Assembly (NCBI RefSeq): GCF_002078015.1
Contig: NZ_LWBP01000199.1
Coordinates: 248,001 to 312,000 of the forward strand
DNA length: 64,000 nucleotides
Direction: 5' to 3'
Origin: Niastella populi
GTDB lineage: Bacteria; Bacteroidota; Bacteroidia; Chitinophagales; Chitinophagaceae
Shown here: piece after piece, positions 21,315 to 57,094 of the stretch
Position numbering within the stretch: position 1 is the stretch's first letter
Layout of the letters: every line of letters starts with the position of its first letter
Notes under the pieces: model-generated
The model's database searches: none
What the model was told of the DNA's origin: nothing
What the model saw: only the letters and a program-made list of their open reading frames with translations
Program-made: the position numbers and the translations under genes

Positions 21315-21798
21315 TGAATATCGAATGTAGAATGTTGAATATCGAAGGAAGAGAAATAAAAAATGAGGAATGAAGAATTAAAAATGAGAAAGTAGAAAAT
21401 ACAAGAAGAATCTCGAATGTCAAATGTAGCATGTCGAATATGGAAGGTTGGGAAATTGCATTTCCCACTTCTACATTCGACATTGAGTATTCAATATTCG
21501 ATATTCTGTATTTCATTTTTCATTTCTCCAAGGGAATTTCAACCACAAACAAAACAGGCGCTGCCGCTTCCCTTTCTTTCCTCAATGTAAATATTTAGTT
21601 ATGCAGCGTGATCAATGTTCCTGTGACTTTAATCAGATGTAAAGTTTAAACAGGTTTTGCGCCAGAATGGCTGTTCCCCGGTGAAAAAAGGAAATTGTGT
21701 CGATGAATTTGAGCGGGCGATCAAAAAAAAACGGGCTAAAACCACAAATCGTTATCGCAGTCAGGGTATTTACTTAACCATTCGAAACTGGCAAACCT
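21315..21798. repeat. Long imperfect hairpin after susD
   Basis: Between 21316 and about 21532 the sequence folds on itself. GAATATCGAA (21316-21325 and 21337-21346) matches TTCGATATTC (21497-21506); GAATGTAGAA (21323-21332) matches TTCTACATTC (21469-21478); and GGGAAAT/ATTTCCC (21450-21466) forms the tip. Arms are made of GAATGT/GAATAT words. The rest up to 21798 holds no gene. It could serve as a large terminator after the susCD unit. Confidence 0.7.
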
Positions 21799-39510: not shown

Positions 39511-39597
39511 GATTTTGAGATTTAGGGATTTTGAGATTCATTTAGTTTTTGCCTTCCGACAAATCTCAAAATCTCCAAATCCCGAAATCCCTAAATT
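39511..39597. repeat. Word-repeat hairpin between susD and the ASPIC gene
   Basis: ATTTAGGGATTT (39520-39531) is the exact complement of AAATCCCTAAAT (39585-39596), and GATTTTGAGATT (39511-39522 and again 39527-39538) complements AATCTCAAAATC (39562-39573). Words of about 8 bp (GATTTTGA, GATTTAGG) recur in each arm. Confidence 0.8.
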
Positions 39598-46283: not shown

Positions 46284-46920
46284 GATAGGTATCTTTTGGT
46301 TTGATTTCTTTAGGTTCGCGAAGATAACACCGGAATAATTAAAATAAGATTAGAACGACCTGCAGAAGGGTTCATTTTGGGCCCTGAAACATCGTTCAAT
46401 TGCCACGAAGTTTAATTCAATTACCGCTGTTCAATTGAATTGCCACAGGATTTAATTCAATTACCGCACTGTTCAATTGAATTATAAGAACGACTAATTC
46501 AATTAAAAGGCGCGTGAATTAAATAACAAGACCGTATAATTAAATTACAAGCTCACAAAAATTGAGGAAAATAAATTAAACCACCTGTCAGGAGTAAATA
46601 AGTTAACGCGTAATGAAGTGAAGATCAAAACAGTAAGGGGCAAACAATCGAGTCGCCCAATAAAGACCTGGGCATGGTCATTTGGCAAAGCAGATCGAAA
46701 GAGGTACGGAACAAATGTAACTATTATTTTTTGGAAATCATAATTTGTTGACCCTAATCATTTCCGGGGCAGATCCGGGTATTCCTGAAGTATCGAAACC
46801 GGTCTGTTTTAGGGAATGAATAACCGATGTAAGGAATTGATGCGGATGGATATACGCCATTTGACCTCATGGCAGTTGATAGTTAGGTAAAAGACGGAAA
46901 AATTCTCTTACTGATTACGT
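46284..46920. repeat. Intergenic region with AATTGAA/TTCAATT repeats
   Basis: Between about 46394 and 46560 the unit GTTCAATTG(AATTG)CCAC..TTTAATTCAATTACCGC occurs twice (46394-46431, 46430-46472) and then decays into TTCAATTGAA, TAATTCAATTA and AATTAAAT words. TTCAATTGAA is self-complementary, so many stems are possible. No gene is seen; the rest to 46920 is unremarkable. Confidence 0.65.
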
Positions 46921-49363: not shown

Positions 49364-50225
49364 TTTGAACAATTGATTTTAGATAAGACAAATGTTCATG
49401 CAGGCTCAACATGAAAAAGTATGAGCGCATACACGCAGGTACTCAATGAAATTTGGTTGGGAGATTGCTTAGATGGCGTTGAAGGTAGGAAAAAAAGCAG
49501 AATTACCGGCTTGCTATAATAATTATGTCGTTTCAGTTTTTGTGAAATATTACAGATTATTCAAATAGCCTTATCGTTTATCAAAATATTACAGATGCCT
49601 GGAACATCGGCAAAGATTATCCTTTGATAGCCCAATTCCTGAAATTAAAAGATCACAAGTTAGTGGCTGATGAAATGGGGAAAACACGGTCACAGTTCTG
49701 GAAGCGCGAAAAAAGCCTGTACATGGATGCGTATTTTTCAATAAAACAGGTCATTGACTACATAGCCGAAACTACATGAAAACTAATGTGATCGCTTTGG
49801 CCATGCTGGTGTGTGAGATCATCCCTTTTTCAGTGCCCTAAACTGGCTACCCGGTTGAAGCATACCGAAAGCAATGGCGATGTTGATTCATACAATGACT
49901 ATTGCCTTTTAGGCAACCTGATATCAGTAAGTGTTGCTTTGTTCTATGTGAACCTGTGGAACCAAACGGGCGCAATTGACGCAGTTTTACATAAAATACT
50001 GATTTAGGCCGGCTTTAAATAACTAATTATTACGAGGTTGTACTTACTATTTTTTTATTGTCAGTATCCTAAATTATTGCCATTCTCCATATAAATTGTG
50101 CAAGTAACCTATTCAAACCCACACTTCCTTCAATAAAACAGCCGGTATTTTAAATTTTTTTTATTTTTAACCCCACTATTAGAAAAAACACACATAAAAC
50201 CCTTATAATCTGACGATATTTTAAG
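49364..50225. other. Non-coding or decayed region before leuC
   Basis: From 49561 to 49779 a frame on plus encodes a normal-looking sequence (DYPLIAQFLKLKDHKLVADE, RSQFWKREKSLYMDAYFSIK, QVIDYIAETT) with no good start, overlapped at 49776 by a 21-codon signal-like frame (MKTNVIALAMLVCEIIPFSV). A 64-codon frame at 49813-50007 follows. AATATTACAGAT occurs twice (about 49549 and 49586). This looks like remains of one or more genes rather than working ones; no family recognised. Confidence 0.4.
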
Positions 50226-50233
50226 AATTTTGC
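50226..50233 (+). promoter_or_regulatory. Possible -7 element for the leu operon
   Basis: GAATTTTG near 50226 is one base off TAnnTTTG, about 23 bp before the leuC ATG. It is the best candidate in the 600 bp before leuC. Coordinates are approximate by a base or two. Confidence 0.3.
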
Positions 50234-50255
50234 AGCTTGATTTAAATTATATAAA

Positions 50256-51659
50256 ATGAGCAAAACCCCCGCTGCATTATTCGACAAAGTATGGGATTCG
50301 CATGTGGTAAAGCATATTGACGACGGCCCCGATGTGTTGTTCATTGACCGGCATTTTATTCATGAGGTAACCAGCCCGGTAGCATTTCTGGGTTTGGAAA
50401 GCCGTGGATTGAAAGTGATGTTCCCCGAGAAGACCTTCGCTACAGCCGATCATAACACCCCCACTATTAACCAGCACCTGCCCGTTCAGGACCCCCTGAG
50501 CGCCAACCAGCTGAAGGCCCTGGAAAGCAACTCGGCCAAATATGGTATTTCACACTGGGGACTGGGCAATCCTAAAAATGGTATCGTGCACGTTGTGGGT
50601 CCCGAAAACGGCATTACCCTGCCGGGCATGACCATCGTTTGCGGCGATTCGCATACTTCTACCCATGGAGCGTTTGGCGCTATTGCATTCGGTATCGGAA
50701 CCTCTGAAGTTGAGATGGTTCTTTCAAGCCAGTGTATTATGCAGCCCCGCCCGAAGAAAATGCGTATTAAAGTAAATGGCCAACTGGGCAAAGGCATTAC
50801 GCCCAAAGACGTGGTACTGTACATCATTTCAAAACTCACCGCAGCCGGTGCTACCGGTTATTTTGTTGAATTTGCCGGTGATGTATTTGAGAACATGACC
50901 ATGGAAGGCCGTATGACCGTGTGCAACATGAGTATTGAAATGGGCGCCCGCGGTGGTATGGTAGCTCCTGATGAAACCACCTTCAACTACATAAAAGGAC
51001 GTGAAAAAGCGCCCAAAGGCGAAGCATGGGACAAAGCACTGGCTTACTGGAAAACGCTGAAAAGCGATGAAGGCGCATTCTTTGATAAAGAATACAACTT
51101 CGACGCCGCCGATATTGAACCCATGATCACCTACGGAACCAATCCGGGTATGGGTATCGGTATTACCAAAAAGATCCCTTCTGCCCAACAAATTGGCAGT
51201 GGCAAGGCCAGCTTCGACAAGTCGTTAGCCTATATGGATTTCCACGAACAGGATAATATGATCGGCAAAAAAGTTGATTATGTTTTCATCGGCAGCTGTA
51301 CCAATGGCCGTATCGAGGATTTCCGTGCATTTGCTTCTGTGGTGAAAGGCCGTAAAAAAGCCGACCATGTAACTGCCTGGATCGTTCCCGGTTCGCACAT
51401 TGTTGAGGCGCAGATCAGGGAAGAAGGTATTCTTGACATTTTGCTGGAAGCAGGTTTCCAGTTACGTCAACCTGGTTGTTCAGCCTGTTTGGCCATGAAC
51501 GACGACAAGATCCCCGCCGGCAAATACGCAGTAAGCACCAGCAACCGCAACTTTGAAGGCCGCCAGGGCCCCGGAGCGAGAACCATGCTTGCCAGTCCGC
51601 TGGTAGCTGCAGCCGCTGCGGTAACAGGGTTTGTAACAGATCCCCGGGAGCTGATCTAA
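50256..51659 (+). CDS. leuC: 3-isopropylmalate dehydratase large subunit
   Basis: 467 residues, full length. The 4Fe-4S cluster cysteines are seen in [13 protein letters not shown] (one Cys) and [10 protein letters not shown] (two). [25 protein letters not shown] and FDADHNTPT-like [12 protein letters not shown] are aconitase-family substrate motifs. With LeuD it interconverts 2- and 3-isopropylmalate, and in isoleucine synthesis also citramalate and beta-methylmalate. First gene of leuC-leuD-leuA-like-leuB. Confidence 0.96.
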
Positions 51660-51821
51660 ATGCAGTTTATTGTTTTTAGTTAATAGTTTATTGTTCTTTA
51701 TTGTTGCAATTTCGGAGTGATCGCAACACCACGGATGTTCGAGGGGAAGCAACCAGAAACTAAAAACGATAAACCAGAAACGGTAACAACAAACCACAAA
51801 CAACAAACGACAAACAGTACA
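51660..51821. repeat. Word-repeat hairpin between leuC and leuD
   Basis: GTTTATTGTTTTTAGTT (51665-51681) pairs with AACTAAAAACGATAAAC (51758-51774), 16 of 17 positions plus a wobble. The right side goes on in tandem AACAAACCACAAACAACAAACGACAAAC words up to the leuD ATG, so the ribosome-binding region itself is a low-complexity purine-rich repeat. Confidence 0.78.
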
Positions 51822-52418
51822 ATGGCCTACGATAAGTTTACAGTATTAAAGAGCACTGCGGTACCTATGCCTATCGAAAACGTAGATACCGATCAGATCA
51901 TTCCGGCCCGTTTCCTGAAAGCCACCGAGCGCAAAGGATTTGGCGATAACCTTTTCCGCGACTGGCGCTATGAAGGCGATGGCACACCCAAAAAAGATTT
52001 CGTTTTAAACAATCCTGTCTATTCCGGTAAAATACTGGTAGGCGGTAAGAACTTCGGCAGCGGCAGCAGCCGCGAGCACGCAGCATGGGCCATATACGAT
52101 TATGGTTTCCGTTGCGTGGTGAGCAGCTTCTTTGCCGATATCTTCAAGAACAACTCTTTGAACATCGGGATCTTACCGGTACAGGTAAGTGAAGCCTTCC
52201 TCGATAAGATCTTCAAAGCCATAGAGGCCGATCCGAAAACCGAACTGGAAGTAAACCTTCCCGAACAGAAGATCACCATTGTTGGCAATGGCGCTTCAGA
52301 GTCATTCGAGATCAATGGCTACAAGAAGAACAATATGATGAATGGTTTCGACGATATCGATTTCCTGCAAAGCCTGAAATCAGACATTCAGGCACAAGCC
52401 GCAAAAAGTATCTATTAG
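51822..52418 (+). CDS. leuD: 3-isopropylmalate dehydratase small subunit
   Basis: 198 residues from the ATG at 51822. Hallmarks: [15 protein letters not shown] and [26 protein letters not shown]. The N-terminal frame extending to 51717 is repeat sequence and is rejected. It pairs with LeuC to build the active isomerase. In the leu operon, preceded by a hairpin spacer and followed by another. Confidence 0.95.
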
Positions 52419-52522
52419 AAAAATTAAAAAATAAAAATGAGGCATTGGAAATGAAAAAGTAAAGACGCTTCATGTTTTCACTTTTTCATTTCTAATTTTT
52501 AATTTCTCATTTCTCATTTCTT
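52419..52522. repeat. Word-repeat hairpin between leuD and leuA-like gene
   Basis: GAAATGAAAAAGT (52448-52460) is the exact complement of ACTTTTTCATTTC (52480-52492), and the arms extend outward as AAAATTAAAAAATAAAAATGAGG versus CTAATTTTTAATTTCTCATTTCTCATTTC. The 19-base loop is AAAGACGCTTCATGTTTTC. Confidence 0.85.
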
Positions 52523-54046
52523 ATGCCTGGTGACCAGCGACACATAGAGATCATGGATACCACGCTCCGCGATGGCGAACAAACCAGCGGAGTGTCGTTC
52601 TCCCCCACCGAAAAACTGACGATTGCCCAATTGCTTTTGACCGAAGTAAAAGTAAACCGCATAGAAATTGCTTCTGCCCGGGTAAGCGAAGGGGAGTTTG
52701 AAGCGGTAAAAGCAATTACAAAATGGGCAAAATCCAATGGTTTTCTGAACCAGGTTGAAGTGCTCACCTTTGTCGATGGCGATGTTTCTATTCAATGGAT
52801 GCAGCAGGCCGGCGCCAAAGTGATGAACCTGCTCACCAAAGGCTCACTGAATCACCTCACCCACCAGTTAAAGAAAAAACCCGAACAGCATTTTGCCGAA
52901 ATAGCCGATGTAATAAAACTGGCCAGAAAAAAAGGAATTGAGGTAAATGTATACCTGGAAGACTGGAGCAACGGGATGCGCCATTCAAAAGAGTATGTAT
53001 TTCAATACCTCGATTTCATTCAAAAAATGCCGGTAAAACGTATTATGTTACCCGATACGCTTGGCATTCTTACGCCCGCGGAAGTAACAGAATACATTTC
53101 GGCTATCGTACAACGCTATCCCGGCCTGCATTTCGATTTTCATGCACATAATGATTATGACCTGGGCACAGCCAACGTGCTGGAAGGCGTAAAAGCCGGC
53201 GCCCATGGCATACACTTAACCATCAATGGTATGGGCGAAAGAGCGGGCAACGCCCCCCTCGCCAGCGCCATTGCCGTAATGAACGATTTCGTGCCTGAGG
53301 TAAAGACCTCCGTTGTTGAGGCTTCTTTATACCGGGTATCGAAGCTGGTTGAAACCTTTTCGGGTTTCCGTATTCCGGTTAACAAACCGGTTGTGGGCGA
53401 GAACGTGTTCACCCAAACCGCCGGCATTCATGCCGATGGCGATAAAAAGAACAAACTCTATTTCAGCGACCTGATGCCCGAGCGTTTTGGCCGTACACGG
53501 CGATACGCCCTCGGCAAAACCAGCGGCAAGGCGAATATTGAAAACAACCTGGCGCAACTGGGCATTCAGTTGAGCGAGCCCGATCTGAAAAAAGTTACCC
53601 AGCGCATCATCGAGCTGGGCGATAAAAAGGAGGTGGTTACTCAGGCCGATCTGCCATATATAATTTCAGATGTGATCGACAGCAGGAATATTACAGAAAA
53701 AGTACGCATCGAGAATTACGTGCTTACGCATTCAAAAAACCTGCGTCCATCGGTAACTGTTGAAATATCCATCAACGGGGAACTATATGAAGAGCACTCG
53801 CAGGGCGACGGACAATACGATGCGTTTGTAAACGCGCTGAAAAAGGTGTATAAACGAATGAAAAAAGAGCTTCCGATATTGACCGATTACGCGGTGCGTA
53901 TACCACCCGGTGGTAAAAGCGACGCCCTTTGCGAAACGGTGATCACCTGGAGCTACAATGGCAAAGAGTTCAAAACCCGCGGTCTCGACAGCGACCAAAC
54001 GGTATCGGCGATAAAGGCTACTCAGAAGATGTTGAATTTGATATAA
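52523..54046 (+). CDS. 2-isopropylmalate synthase / citramalate synthase family protein
   Basis: 507 residues. HMGL-like TIM barrel with MDTTLRDGEQTSGVSF (catalytic Arg, metal Asp), HFDFHAHNDYDLGTANVLEGVKAGA and INGMGERAGNAPLASA, then a LeuA allosteric C-terminal region (about 390-500; VTVEISINGELYEEHSQGDGQYDAFVNAL). It condenses acetyl-CoA with a 2-keto acid; the Bacteroidota branch with the LTFVDGDVSIQWMQ segment has members of the leucine (2-ketoisovalerate) and isoleucine (pyruvate, citramalate) types. The C-terminal domain binds the end-product amino acid for feedback inhibition. Which pathway it serves cannot be decided from the sequence, so no symbol is given. Between leuD and leuB in the operon. 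Confidence 0.88.
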   Translation: MPGDQRHIEIMDTTLRDGEQTSGVSFSPTEKLTIAQLLLTEVKVNRIEIASARVSEGEFEAVKAITKWAKSNGFLNQVEVLTFVDGDVSIQWMQQAGAKVMNLLTKGSLNHLTHQLKKKPEQHFAEIADVIKLARKKGIEVNVYLEDWSNGMRHSKEYVFQYLDFIQKMPVKRIMLPDTLGILTPAEVTEYISAIVQRYPGLHFDFHAHNDYDLGTANVLEGVKAGAHGIHLTINGMGERAGNAPLASAIAVMNDFVPEVKTSVVEASLYRVSKLVETFSGFRIPVNKPVVGENVFTQTAGIHADGDKKNKLYFSDLMPERFGRTRRYALGKTSGKANIENNLAQLGIQLSEPDLKKVTQRIIELGDKKEVVTQADLPYIISDVIDSRNITEKVRIENYVLTHSKNLRPSVTVEISINGELYEEHSQGDGQYDAFVNALKKVYKRMKKELPILTDYAVRIPPGGKSDALCETVITWSYNGKEFKTRGLDSDQTVSAIKATQKMLNLI

Positions 54047-54567
54047 AGGAACAAGGCAACAAGGCAACAAGGCATAAAGGCAACGAGGGGAAATACAGAG
54101 GAAGCGAGTGATTTATTTTTAATAATAACACTTGCGGTATGTCAACCATTCAATCTTTTCGAGACCTAATCGTTTGGCAAAAGTCAATGAAACTGGTCAC
54201 AGAGATCTATCTTGCTACCAGATCTTTTCCACCTGAAGAGTTATATGCGTTAACAAGTCAACTACGCCGTTGTGCCATATCCATTCCAAGCAATATTGCT
54301 GAAGGATATGGAAGAAGATCAACGTTGGATTATAAGCGTTTTTTACAAATAGCAGTTGGTTCTACTTTTGAATTGCAGACTCAGATTGAAATCGCTTCTA
54401 ATTTGAAATATCTTTCATCGGAGCTATTCGGCAATCTTAGTAATGCGGCAAAGGAAATTGAACTGATGCTATTATCTTTGATAAACAAATTGATTAACTA
54501 ATGTTTGAAAGAGACAAAAGGCCCTGGCTTCTACTCGTTGCCTCGTTGCCTTGTTGCCTCTATTCCT
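54047..54567. mobile_element. Inverted-repeat-bounded element carrying a four-helix-bundle gene
   Basis: Left arm 54047-54090 consists of AGGCAACA words (AGGCAACAAGGCAAC at 54054-54068); right arm about 54534-54567 has the exact complement (GTTGCCTTGTTGCCT at 54545-54559). Between the arms is a complete four-helix-bundle gene. The arms would pair and put the gene in a loop of about 440 bases, the arrangement of 23S rRNA intervening sequences. No target duplication is evident. Similar GTTGCC arrays lie at 32561-32600. Mobility is inferred. Confidence 0.6.
54139..54501 (+). CDS. Four-helix-bundle protein, 23S rRNA intervening-sequence type
   Basis: 120 residues. The family signature is complete: FRDLIVWQKSMKLVTEIY, LTSQLRRCAISIPSNIAEGY, RRSTLDYKRFLQIAVGSTFELQTQI. 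This is the S23/IVP family (related to Avd of retroelements), small all-helical proteins encoded inside intervening sequences of 23S rRNA in Leptospira and others, and as stand-alone copies in Bacteroidota. Here it sits in the leu operon between the LeuA-like gene and leuB, and between inverted repeats. Its low GC and AT-rich codon use differ from its neighbours, suggesting transfer. It is probably translated from the leu mRNA. Function unknown; nucleic-acid binding is likely. Confidence 0.93.
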   Translation: MSTIQSFRDLIVWQKSMKLVTEIYLATRSFPPEELYALTSQLRRCAISIPSNIAEGYGRRSTLDYKRFLQIAVGSTFELQTQIEIASNLKYLSSELFGNLSNAAKEIELMLLSLINKLIN

Positions 54568-54579
54568 AAAAACAAAAGC

Positions 54580-55653
54580 ATGGCAACTAAGCACATACTC
54601 ATCGTTCCCGGCGACGGCATTGGCCAGGAAGTAACGGCAGTTGGTAAAAAAGTGTTAGACAAGATCGCTGCAAAATTCGGACACACATTTACATATGACG
54701 AAGCATTGATCGGCCATGTGGCCATCGAAGCAACAGGCAATCCCCTCCCCGATGAAACGCTGGAGAAAATGCGCAAGTCAGACGCTGTGCTGTTTGGCGC
54801 GGTAGGACATCCCAAATACGACAACGACCCTACTGCCAAAGTACGTCCGGAGCAGGGTTTGCTGAAAATGCGTAAAGAACTGGGACTGTACGCCAACCTG
54901 CGCCCCATTAAATTATTCGATGAGTTGCTGGGCGCGTCCAGCATTAAACCCGAAGTATTGAAAGGCGCCGACATCCTTTTCTTCCGTGAGTTGACGGGCG
55001 ATATTTATTTCGGTGAGAAAGGCAGAAAGAACGACGGCGACACCGCTTATGACGTGGCGCAATACAGCCGCTTTGAAGTAGAGCGCATTGCCCGCAAAGC
55101 GTTCGAAGCAGCCCGTACCAGAAGAAAGAAATTATGTTCTGTAGATAAAGCGAACGTTATTGAAACCAGCCGCCTGTGGCGCGAAGTGGTTCAAAAAATC
55201 GCAAAAGAATATCCCGACGTAGAAGTGGAACATCAGTTTGTTGACGCTACAGCTATGTTGCTGATAAAAGACCCGCGCAAATTCGACGTAGTGGTAACAG
55301 CCAACCTGTTTGGCGATATCCTTACCGATGAAGCGTCACAGATTGCCGGTTCAATGGGTATGCTGGCTTCCGCTTCAATTGGTGATGGCACCGGCGTTTA
55401 TGAGCCTATTCACGGTTCTGCGCATGATATTACCGGTAAGGGCGTTGCCAATCCGCTGGCTTCTATTTTATCGGCGGCGCTGCTGCTCGATATATCATTT
55501 GGCATGAAAGCCGAATCGGAAGCTGTGATCAGCGCCGTAGATAAAGTATTGAAAGCAGGTTTCCGCACCCGCGATATCGCCGATGCACAAACTCCCGCAA
55601 ACAAGATCTTAGGCACCGATGCTATAGGCGAAGAGGTGTTGAAGTTTTTGTAA
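54580..55653 (+). CDS. leuB: 3-isopropylmalate dehydrogenase
   Basis: 357 residues from the ATG at 54580; an earlier frame starting at 54505 is the hairpin arm. It is a beta-decarboxylating dehydrogenase: [15 protein letters not shown] (Rossmann start), [71 protein letters not shown] and the NAD-binding [20 protein letters not shown]. It oxidises 3-isopropylmalate to 2-ketoisocaproate precursor in leucine synthesis, and the same enzyme family handles 3-methylmalate in the citramalate route. Operon end, followed by a terminator. Confidence 0.95.
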
Positions 55654-55677
55654 GTTATCATAAGAAGTTTTCAGAAG

Positions 55678-55705
55678 GCGGGTCATTGATATGGCCCGCT
55701 TTTTT
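55678..55705 (+). terminator. Rho-independent terminator of the leu operon
   Basis: GCGGGTCA / TGGCCCGC (55678-55685 and 55692-55699, one T-G pair), loop TTGATA, followed by six T. Confidence 0.88.
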
Positions 55706-55789
55706 ATTGCTGTTAACAGACATCAATAGGTGATCATGAAAATTAACAAGTATGCATTGAGAAACAAACCGGTAATGAGTTTCCCCTGT

Positions 55790-57094
55790 TCACAACGCCA
55801 CCACATTAACCGAGGTGGTTCCATAGATCAACTCTAGCGCTTTATCTACAGGCAGATCGCCAGGCCGGCCAACGGGCGGTAATGGCAATTTACCGGTTTC
55901 AGTGACCGGGTAATGCGGCACCAGTCCGTTTGAATAATCACCCTTGCCATTAGCGTCTGCGATCTTATATACTGTGGGCATTAGCACCCAGGCCACCTGC
56001 CTCGGGTTTCGCAGATCTTCTACCGGGAAGGAGGCTTCATCTTTGCCCAGCGTGGTTTCTCCTATGCGAACAACATCAGTATATGGCGCCAGGTTATGCA
56101 CTAGCAGTTCCGCTGCCGATGCGGTTTCAGCCGATGTTAAAATGAACAGGCGCGATAAATGAAGGTTCGACGCCTGCAGGTCGCTCATGTTCTTGCCGCT
56201 GGCATTACCGCTAAAAGCGATCGCCTGCTGAAAAGTTTGTACAACGGTTCCCCCATGCCGGTTGCCCCGGTACGTTATAAACTTAGCGGAAGCGTTGAAG
56301 TTACCGGCCAGCATAGCCGCCAGCTTGGTGGCGGAAGCCACGCTGCCGCCGGGGTTATAACGCAGATCGAGTATCATTTCGGACACCCCTTTTTGTTGCA
56401 GTTTCTGTATGCTTTGCAACATAACGCCGTCATCTTTTTCGGCGCAAAGATAATAAGCCAGGTAACCGGTCTTTTTTCCACCGGCTTCAAATAAACTGGT
56501 TGCGTATACGCTTTTCTGCGGCACTATAGAACTTTGTACTCCTACCCGCGCAGCGTCGACCAGTGCAGAACGATCGGTATTGAATGCAGCCAGTTGTAAA
56601 ATGGCCGATGACGCCTGCAAGGCTGCTTTGGTTGTTTGTTTGTTACCGGGAGTTATGGCTTTGTCATTCACTGCGGTAAAAAGCATTCCCCGCTTCAATC
56701 CCCTGTTATTGGCAGCACTGCCCGGAATTACATGGGTAATAACCCCTATCAGTTTTTGCGAATCGAACGGATGCGCTGTAAACGTATAATGAAAACCATA
56801 CATTTCGGCCGATGTTTTGGTAGACCCGATATTTGTTCGGTTACTGATCCAGGAAAAGCGGTCTTTCGGCGATAATAACTGTTTAAAGAACTGTTCGGTA
56901 GGCAATGAATAATCGGGATGCGCCGGCATATCGGCGCTCCAGTAATAGTATAACTGCATACTGTCGTACACCCACTTATTGATCTTGCCAAGGGAATCGG
57001 TTGGTTGCCAGCCGGCATCCTTTTTAGTGCAGGCCGGGCCGGGCAGCAAAGCAAATGAAATTAATATGTATACAATGATTTTACTAACAGTCAT
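55790..57094 (-). CDS. S41 family (C-terminal processing) peptidase lipoprotein
   Basis: 434 residues with lipoprotein signal ending GPAC. A PDZ-like region (GVITHVIPGSAANNRGLKRGMLFTAVNDKAI, about 117-150) is followed by the S41 domain: GYLAYYLCAEKDDG, ILDLRYNPGGSVASATKLAAML, and the catalytic serine in LTSAETASAAELLVHNL with the lysine in GETTLGKDEASF. It is a periplasmic protease of the tail-specific type; substrate unknown. It is separate from the T9SS genes downstream. Confidence 0.88.
   Translation of the reverse strand: MTVSKIIVYILISFALLPGPACTKKDAGWQPTDSLGKINKWVYDSMQLYYYWSADMPAHPDYSLPTEQFFKQLLSPKDRFSWISNRTNIGSTKTSAEMYGFHYTFTAHPFDSQKLIGVITHVIPGSAANNRGLKRGMLFTAVNDKAITPGNKQTTKAALQASSAILQLAAFNTDRSALVDAARVGVQSSIVPQKSVYATSLFEAGGKKTGYLAYYLCAEKDDGVMLQSIQKLQQKGVSEMILDLRYNPGGSVASATKLAAMLAGNFNASAKFITYRGNRHGGTVVQTFQQAIAFSGNASGKNMSDLQASNLHLSRLFILTSAETASAAELLVHNLAPYTDVVRIGETTLGKDEASFPVEDLRNPRQVAWVLMPTVYKIADANGKGDYSNGLVPHYPVTETGKLPLPPVGRPGDLPVDKALELIYGTTSVNVVAL

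Follow-up and report, generated by a model that had tools for sequence, protein, structure and literature searches.

Reading the leucine operon of Niastella populi 5′ to 3′ along the forward strand of the 64,000-nucleotide stretch analysed here (the ‘window’), we find a complete gene of the 23S rRNA intervening-sequence protein (IVP) family, coding for a four-helix bundle protein, at 54139–54501 (+ strand; 120 codons and a stop). As the preliminary description of this DNA had claimed, it sits between a LeuA-like open reading frame (52523–54046) and a leuB frame with its ATG at 54580—names assigned from sequence and position—and thus outside any rRNA gene. Directly 3′ of the LeuA-like stop codon lies an upstream ‘arm’ (54047–54074), an array of the 8-mer AAGGCAAC and its variants (score 41, period 8); its words return, inverted, in a downstream arm (54539–54567), with the leuB start 12 nt beyond. 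Neither the arms nor the hairpins described below are assigned to a strand. The exact inverted repeats announced for this locus can be read directly in the sequence: the 15-bp word AGGCAACAAGGCAAC occupies 54054–54068 and its exact reverse complement 54545–54559, both embedded in the imperfect longer arms, which enclose a loop of 464 nt.

The assignment of the gene is clear, with 132.8 bits against PF05635 (23S_rRNA_IVP; cut-off 33.8) and 129.5 against TIGR02436 (cut-off 24). It matches only IVP/Avd-type models, and no IS200-like tyrosine transposase; for Avd itself it stays under the cut-offs of both NF033474 (18.5 vs 80 bits) and bAvd PF22296 (28.7 vs 40). An AlphaFold2 model (pLDDT 96.1; 34 sequences) has as its best match in the PDB entry 2GSC (TM 0.91); 2RLD is matched too, and Avd (4DWL) more weakly, with a TM of 0.77.

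Searching Rfam at E values up to 1 gives no match overlapping the element and three weak, sub-threshold matches elsewhere in 50000–56000. The L20 leader is matched below threshold behind leuB, at 55597–55713 (29.8 bits, with gathering at 58.7), probably by chance. An intergenic segment at 46425–46524 contains overlapping inverted and repeated ATTCAATTACCGC / TTCAATTGAATTA motifs.

Inverted arrays of short words

Flank complementarity of the window copy scores 41, as against 38 for the best of 594 mispaired flank pairs from the same genome, and each of the 13 family matches of the source genome reaches at least 30 (11 of the 13 exceed it). The preliminary description had named rarity of such repeats around other copies as the mark of a chance pairing; across ten congeneric genomes, 62 of the 71 IVP matches tested lie beyond the 99th percentile (a score of 30) of the 594 same-genome mispaired flanks. 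This test took in 71 of 73 listed matches, the second fragments of G005:C1:8131317 and G002:C9:104243 being left out, and the analyses of period, orthology, strand and arm pairing within the genus omit a further 7 of the 71 copies, which score below 30. Across 863 kb of sequence, a large part of which surrounds IVP genes, we counted 148 hairpins scoring at least 30 (at least one of them a run of N) vs 10 after block-wise Markov shuffling, with loops mainly of up to ~150 nt or of ~350–580 nt.

Further afield, a sample of 148 genomes from the phylum includes 116 with a member of the IVP family. We assembled 245 loci in six samples (L263 was excluded beforehand and, from the plasmid loci L220–L225 and L231–L233, only five were used), in which arms scoring at least 30 were present at 67/80 loci of a ‘named’ sample, 63/71 of the genus, 26/30 of a family, 21/29 of a class, 15/30 of the phylum and 4/5 on cyanobacterial plasmids; the 196 loci kept for word comparisons come from this set. 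Measured against the 99th percentile of mispaired flanks, the phylum sample has 12/30 loci above it, the class sample 12/27 (27 of 30 loci entering this test) and the named sample 18/80, a low figure because its loci share words. Chance or shared base composition could be invoked for the 49 of 245 loci without arms of score ≥30 (15 of the 30 in the phylum sample among them), but as an explanation of paired arms it is refuted by the mispaired-flank, antisense and shuffle controls, and we give it practically no likelihood.

The arms are imperfect tandem arrays, with a best period of 7 at 169 of the 196 loci, 8 at 25, and 9 and 10 at one each; their autocorrelation is at least 0.62 at 179/196 loci, compared with 11 after shuffling. 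Median arm length is 33 nt, the words within the arms face inward, and the window element is of the 8-mer type, with AAGGCAAC as its word. An ordinary insertion sequence or MITE with a conserved terminal repeat was considered and rejected, the 13 copies of the genome carrying different words. Here the earlier picture needs correcting: the arms are element-specific 7/8-mer arrays that track the protein subfamily, with no single shared terminal repeat.

Two variations on this anatomy were seen along the way. Unusually long arms, of up to ~75 nt, flank an orthologous IVP site in L070 (9664–10344), L005, L069, L068, L065 and L059; the build is similar throughout and the words differ from species to species. 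Near-identical short palindromic hairpins of ATGAAAACACAAAGATACAT and its complement occur in three congeneric records (L088 14007–14060, L093 5787–5840 and L092 6081–6134); these are no word arrays.

Hairpins of the same build but without a gene had been reported for the other spacers of the operon, and we find them there: one in the leuC–leuD spacer (51665–51774; GTTTATTG/AGTTAAT words) and one between leuD and the LeuA-like gene (52421–52519; AAATGAG/AAATTAA words). Two more lie elsewhere in the window, at 39511–39589 (GATTTTGA words) and 21382–21525 (AAATGAG and GAATGTC words). The spacers orthologous to that of 52421–52519 have hairpins of the same or of other words, and taking the leuC–leuD and leuD–leuA spacers together across species, the hairpins stay and the words change.

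For the leuA–leuB spacer, a comparison of related genomes with and without the gene had been suggested. Among nine congeneric genomes, the source genome included, the IVP element is present in three (G000, G003 and G005), a hairpin of GGTTACC or GGTTTCA-type words, without a gene, in four (G001, G002, G006 and G007), and a short remnant or almost nothing in two (G004 and G009). The leucine-operon copy is shared with two congeners; in both of these, G003 and G005, the gene at this spot has matching arms, rather than the bare flanks that the preliminary description would have read as chance.

Over 844 kb of the genus we count 65 gene-free word hairpins, 57 of which match genus IVP arms (vs 22 of 65 when the same number of other arms is used instead), and 55 of which lie near an upstream stop codon, at a median of 9 nt (vs 241 of 1300 random positions). 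Their words run 45 to 1 in one orientation, with one tie; we rejected this as a claim about strand, because an inverted pair looks identical on either strand, and the ratio says only that words face inward. Such hairpins are rarer outside the genus: 800 kb of five IVP-rich genomes contain nine short-loop and three long-loop word hairpins, spread over three of the five, and 800 kb of five IVP-free genomes (some GC-richer) contain none. As far as their sequences go, then, the gene-free hairpins share both their words and their position behind stop codons with the IVP elements. An intervening-sequence-type element with gene-free relatives, as originally proposed, is in this way supported and widened: arms flank most of the tested copies of the gene, and gene-free hairpins share their words.

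Word, protein and the pairing of arms

Similarity between words increases with the identity of the IVPs that they flank, and the antisense comparison stays low; the latter controls for polarity and composition only, because an inverted pair reads alike on both strands. The named sample comprises 80 loci from many phyla (judged by record titles) picked by closeness to one IVP, L113, and therefore covers a single subfamily, most of its loci having AGTGG/AGTAG-type heptamers. Within it, 21.5% of the pairs with identity 0.4–0.5 have a word score of at least 24, and 88% of those at ≥0.7, the antisense figures being 0% and 13%. Between samples the increase is confined to the top of the range, with 5% at 0.5–0.6, 19% at 0.6–0.7 and 90% of 20 pairs at ≥0.7. 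Mantel correlations, in which taxonomy is uncontrolled, are 0.36 for the named sample (67 loci), 0.57 for a proteobacterial family (26 loci) and 0.65 for the genus (63 loci); in each of the three samples 0 of 2000 permutations matched the observed r.

If the word follows the protein, a word should be predictable from a protein, and the solved IVP 2GSC, which is XCC0516 of Xanthomonas campestris, offers such a case. From X. campestris, Rehm et al. 2015 (PMC4692102) report 186 repeats of the GGGAATC type, with 70 cases of convergent pairs; in their account the repeats generally lacked an association with mobile elements. XCC0516-like IVPs are accordingly expected to have GGGAATC arms. In a search of 369 genomes of the class to which a gammaproteobacterial record belongs, and of 117 genomes of one family, we read the best 30 family loci: GGGAATC/GGGATTC arms flank 13 of the 14 at 66–75% identity to XCC0516 and 1 of the 16 at 51–64%. 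The forward prediction held. The window copy is outside this XCC0516/GGGNATC type, since its word differs.

A structural role has been proposed for GGGNATC repeats, together with a preference for four units (PMC4692102), and the words of the XCC0516-like group are indeed G-rich. One might then suppose that the heptamers are preserved for a structure that they themselves form in DNA or RNA, a G-quadruplex or another simple-repeat function, with the IVP genes as passengers; but the words of the other samples mostly have no G runs, and the word follows the protein, so that we consider this very improbable.

Within the genus, similar copies are mostly orthologous, 81 of 99 pairs at an identity of at least 0.6 having both flanks in common, and movement in the genus is therefore old or rare. 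The 81 pairs allow arms to be compared across orthologues: in 68, an arm is more complementary to its partner in its own copy than to that of the orthologue, and for disjoint pairs alone the figure is 19 of 24 (one tie; p 0.014). The two arms therefore change together.

What keeps them matched could be RNA. Transcribed from 54040–54575, the window element is predicted to fold with its arms paired (z −6.8; 0 of 100 shuffles), as it would if it were an RNA-level intervening sequence, with arms kept for mRNA folding and a stem cut by RNase III so that parts of the operon transcript are split or freed; the IVP may in addition bind the stem. Most IVP genes also share their strand with the gene upstream (a strict rule places 45 of 64 genus copies behind a same-strand frame, the arm beginning at a median of 5 nt past its stop, and 48 of 64 ahead of one), and there is precedent in the Coxiella IVS, which is cut by RNase III (PMC4990558), and in the departure of rRNA IVSs from 23S rRNA. 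However, arm mismatches at the 196 loci show no excess of G-U, with 185 against 225 A-C (p 0.054); compensation by way of G-U is thus no more frequent than by A-C, which argues against RNA pairing as the keeper of arm matching. It fits copying between the arms at the level of DNA, a process that we infer. Units nested in coding genes with an open frame, where cutting of the mRNA would break the gene, weigh against an RNA-level role too, and we regard it as unlikely.

The unit at plasmid sites and inside methyltransferase genes

Beyond the genus, sites can be found with and without the element. On plasmid C of Trichormus variabilis (NC_007412) it lies behind a stop codon, and six plasmid records that match its surroundings at 97.5–97.9% are shorter by 428 nt over the same span; the two that we read (L226 and L228) are empty, with a clean junction. 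GTAAT flanks the Trichormus element on both sides and occurs once in the empty site. The same site on other plasmids holds a gene-free hairpin with a related word in Brasilonema (L234) and a decayed copy in Nostoc (L227). A second plasmid site is occupied in L233 and in L232 (where the IVP gene is shortened and interrupted), holds other sequence in L341, and is empty in L339, L340 and L342, where stop and start codon stand three bases apart. Presence or absence of the exact unit, with clean junctions, is thereby seen at two Nostocales plasmid sites; at two further plasmid sites the junctions are not clean, and a direct target repeat is clear at one of the four (GTAAT) and unclear at the other three. 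The empty sites may reflect gain or precise loss alike, and loss is possible at the Trichormus site because a decayed copy occurs there.

Copies are also shared across the element and little else. Between the Trichormus element and further plasmid sites, similarity is restricted to the element (query ~1153–1571, 78–82%); two contigs of a Pirellulales MAG have nothing in common but an element (466 nt, 89%) and some short pieces of arm; and two Thiosymbion records have 414 nt (91%) and a 112-nt piece in common. At the level of sequence, then, the gene and both arms are one unit, present or absent as a whole and recurring at unrelated sites, and the class extends beyond the leucine operon, the genus and the phylum, a correction to the narrower setting first given. 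A tblastn search of phage records with one IVP gave no match, and five IVP loci lie in viral contigs.

Two plasmid loci deserve separate mention. In L224 (Anabaena sp. 90 plasmid pANA02, 2483–2851) an IVP gene with AGGTGAC arms separates cas6 from cas4 in a type I-D CRISPR operon. Plasmids 1 and 2 of Calothrix brevissima NIES-22 (L220 and L221) have an IVP element with GGGTGTA arms in common; this is no evidence of element-only movement, because the neighbouring genes are shared too.

In one subfamily the element occurs within genes. At L155, L159, L178 and L196 it lies inside a single host gene; the flanking pieces of L155 match PglX (BREX) at profile positions 2–960 and 981–1173, and the host frame, a different one from that of the IVP gene, is uninterrupted across the element, with 1326–1338 codons in the three longer records. 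A host frame of more than 350 codons is open through the element at 25 of 224 loci, L141, L145, L148, L151, L161, L113, L129, L140 and L142 as well as L155, L178 and L196 among them, and always at offset +2 from the IVP frame; the count rests on 224 of the 245 loci, decayed and short frames being omitted, and L159, truncated by the start of its record, falls outside the 25. Frames open across the IVP part occur at offset +1 in 2/224 loci and at +2 in 41/224, and so part of the +2 bias may be a matter of composition. Open frames were also seen on the opposite strand, nine in all and eight of these in one proteobacterial family; we disregarded them as likely due to chance.

We tested 20 of the 25 host genes: 16 match methyltransferase, PglX, DrmM or Eco57I models, one matches DUF1156 and three have no match in this search; most are DNA methyltransferases of defence systems (PglX, type III, DrmM). 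L113 is itself nested in a type III methyltransferase gene, and since the sample was centred on it, the finding describes the L113 subfamily; there are no nested copies among 57 copies of the genus. Switching of the methyltransferase through 7-nt units is a guess that the arrangement invites.

With these copies in view, we can return to the hairpins of the operon spacers. They might be host regulatory devices, punctuating operons through mRNA stability or attenuation, with arrays that grow by slippage and an IVP that serves as the host regulator reading them. Their persistence in orthologous spacers despite the change of words, their location just behind stop codons and the largely orthologous nature of the genus copies would all suit such a role; unrelated sites that share the element alone, near-identical plasmids in which the site is empty, nesting in methyltransferase genes and the matching of word to protein across many phyla would not, and we judge a regulatory role to be quite improbable.

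We think it probable instead that the leucine-operon feature is a copy of a minimal mobile element, consisting of an inward array of 7-/8-nt words, an IVP gene and the array inverted. The IVP four-helix bundle, which has been crystallised as five chains, would recognise its own word, and one word per protomer would fit arms with a median of 33 nt. Having joined the two arms, it would leave host enzymes to copy or transfer the unit, and it could act in trans on hairpins that lack the gene, in the way suggested for RAYT proteins and REPINs. Likeness of the arms would be maintained by DNA-level copying between them. Most genus copies would be old and vertically inherited, and the leucine operon would tolerate its element because the insertion lies just behind a stop codon. 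It speaks against a mobile element that the unit contains no transposase, nuclease or reverse transcriptase. Also weighing against it are the mostly orthologous copies of the genus, the ambiguity of gain and loss at the empty sites, the single clear target repeat, the loci that lack arms, the scarcity of word hairpins outside the genus, the GC difference of the IVP-free genomes used for comparison, and the paired fold predicted for the RNA.

Relation to known systems

An abundant protein family without an assigned function is here tied to heptamer repeats between genes, on whose explanation there is no agreement, and a testable role for both is implied: each IVP subfamily should bind its own word. 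The results also suggest a class of mobile element that has no recognisable transposase, and whose ends change fast yet match each other and the protein; the copies nested in methyltransferase genes of defence systems hint at a connection with phase variation. Taken together, that IVPs are dedicated partners of inverted 7/8-mer repeats throughout Bacteria, forming minimal mobile elements that explain at least part of the cyanobacterial and Xanthomonas heptamers, with one subfamily nested out of frame in phage-defence methyltransferase genes where gain or loss of 7 nt could switch the enzyme, is a reading to which we give even chances. We found no literature linking IVP genes to word repeats or describing the element, in a search whose scope did not extend to preprints and most subscription journals.

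In Leptospira, and likewise in Coxiella, an S23p/IVP open reading frame lies within an intervening sequence (IVS) of the 23S rRNA. The Coxiella IVS measures 428 nt and has a 28-bp stem, and the paper describing it quotes the idea that IVSs were once mobile elements whose ORF served mobility (PMC4990558). Like these, the elements here place an IVP-family protein in the loop of terminal inverted repeats, in a unit of similar length; unlike them, they occur in protein-operon spacers, plasmids and methyltransferase genes rather than rRNA, and have arms of protein-matched 7/8-mers, gene-free relatives, and occupied and empty sites.

With the Avd proteins of diversity-generating retroelements, whose homology to IVPs has been stated (PMC10053308), there is a common fold (4DWL, TM 0.77 as above), but the window protein scores far under the Avd model cut-off and its unit is without a reverse transcriptase. 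A 23S rRNA IVP is also named in a figure legend on CRISPR-linked genes (PMC10910872). Insertion sequences and MITEs resemble the elements in their terminal inverted repeats, their autonomous and gene-free forms and their presence or absence at sites; the unit here differs in having no transposase, and in ends that vary among the copies of one genome.

REPIN–RAYT systems (PMC3116915) likewise combine inverted-repeat hairpins, gene-free extragenic copies and a protein partner with its own repeat type. The likeness is functional only: RAYT is an IS200-like tyrosine transposase and the IVP a four-helix bundle, and IVP copies sit inside their own hairpin, are many per genome, and have words that are short tandem units.

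Among intergenic heptamer arrays, the STRR of cyanobacteria and the TAACTGA arrays of Beggiatoaceae, nearly all direct repeats (PMC4679880), have been described; no IVP gene or element is named in the available parts of these descriptions or of PMC4692102. The heptamers of Xanthomonas and Nostoc (GGGNATC; PMC4692102) likewise form intergenic arrays with variants of the unit, and the Xanthomonas heptamer GGGAATC is the word found here on XCC0516-like IVPs.
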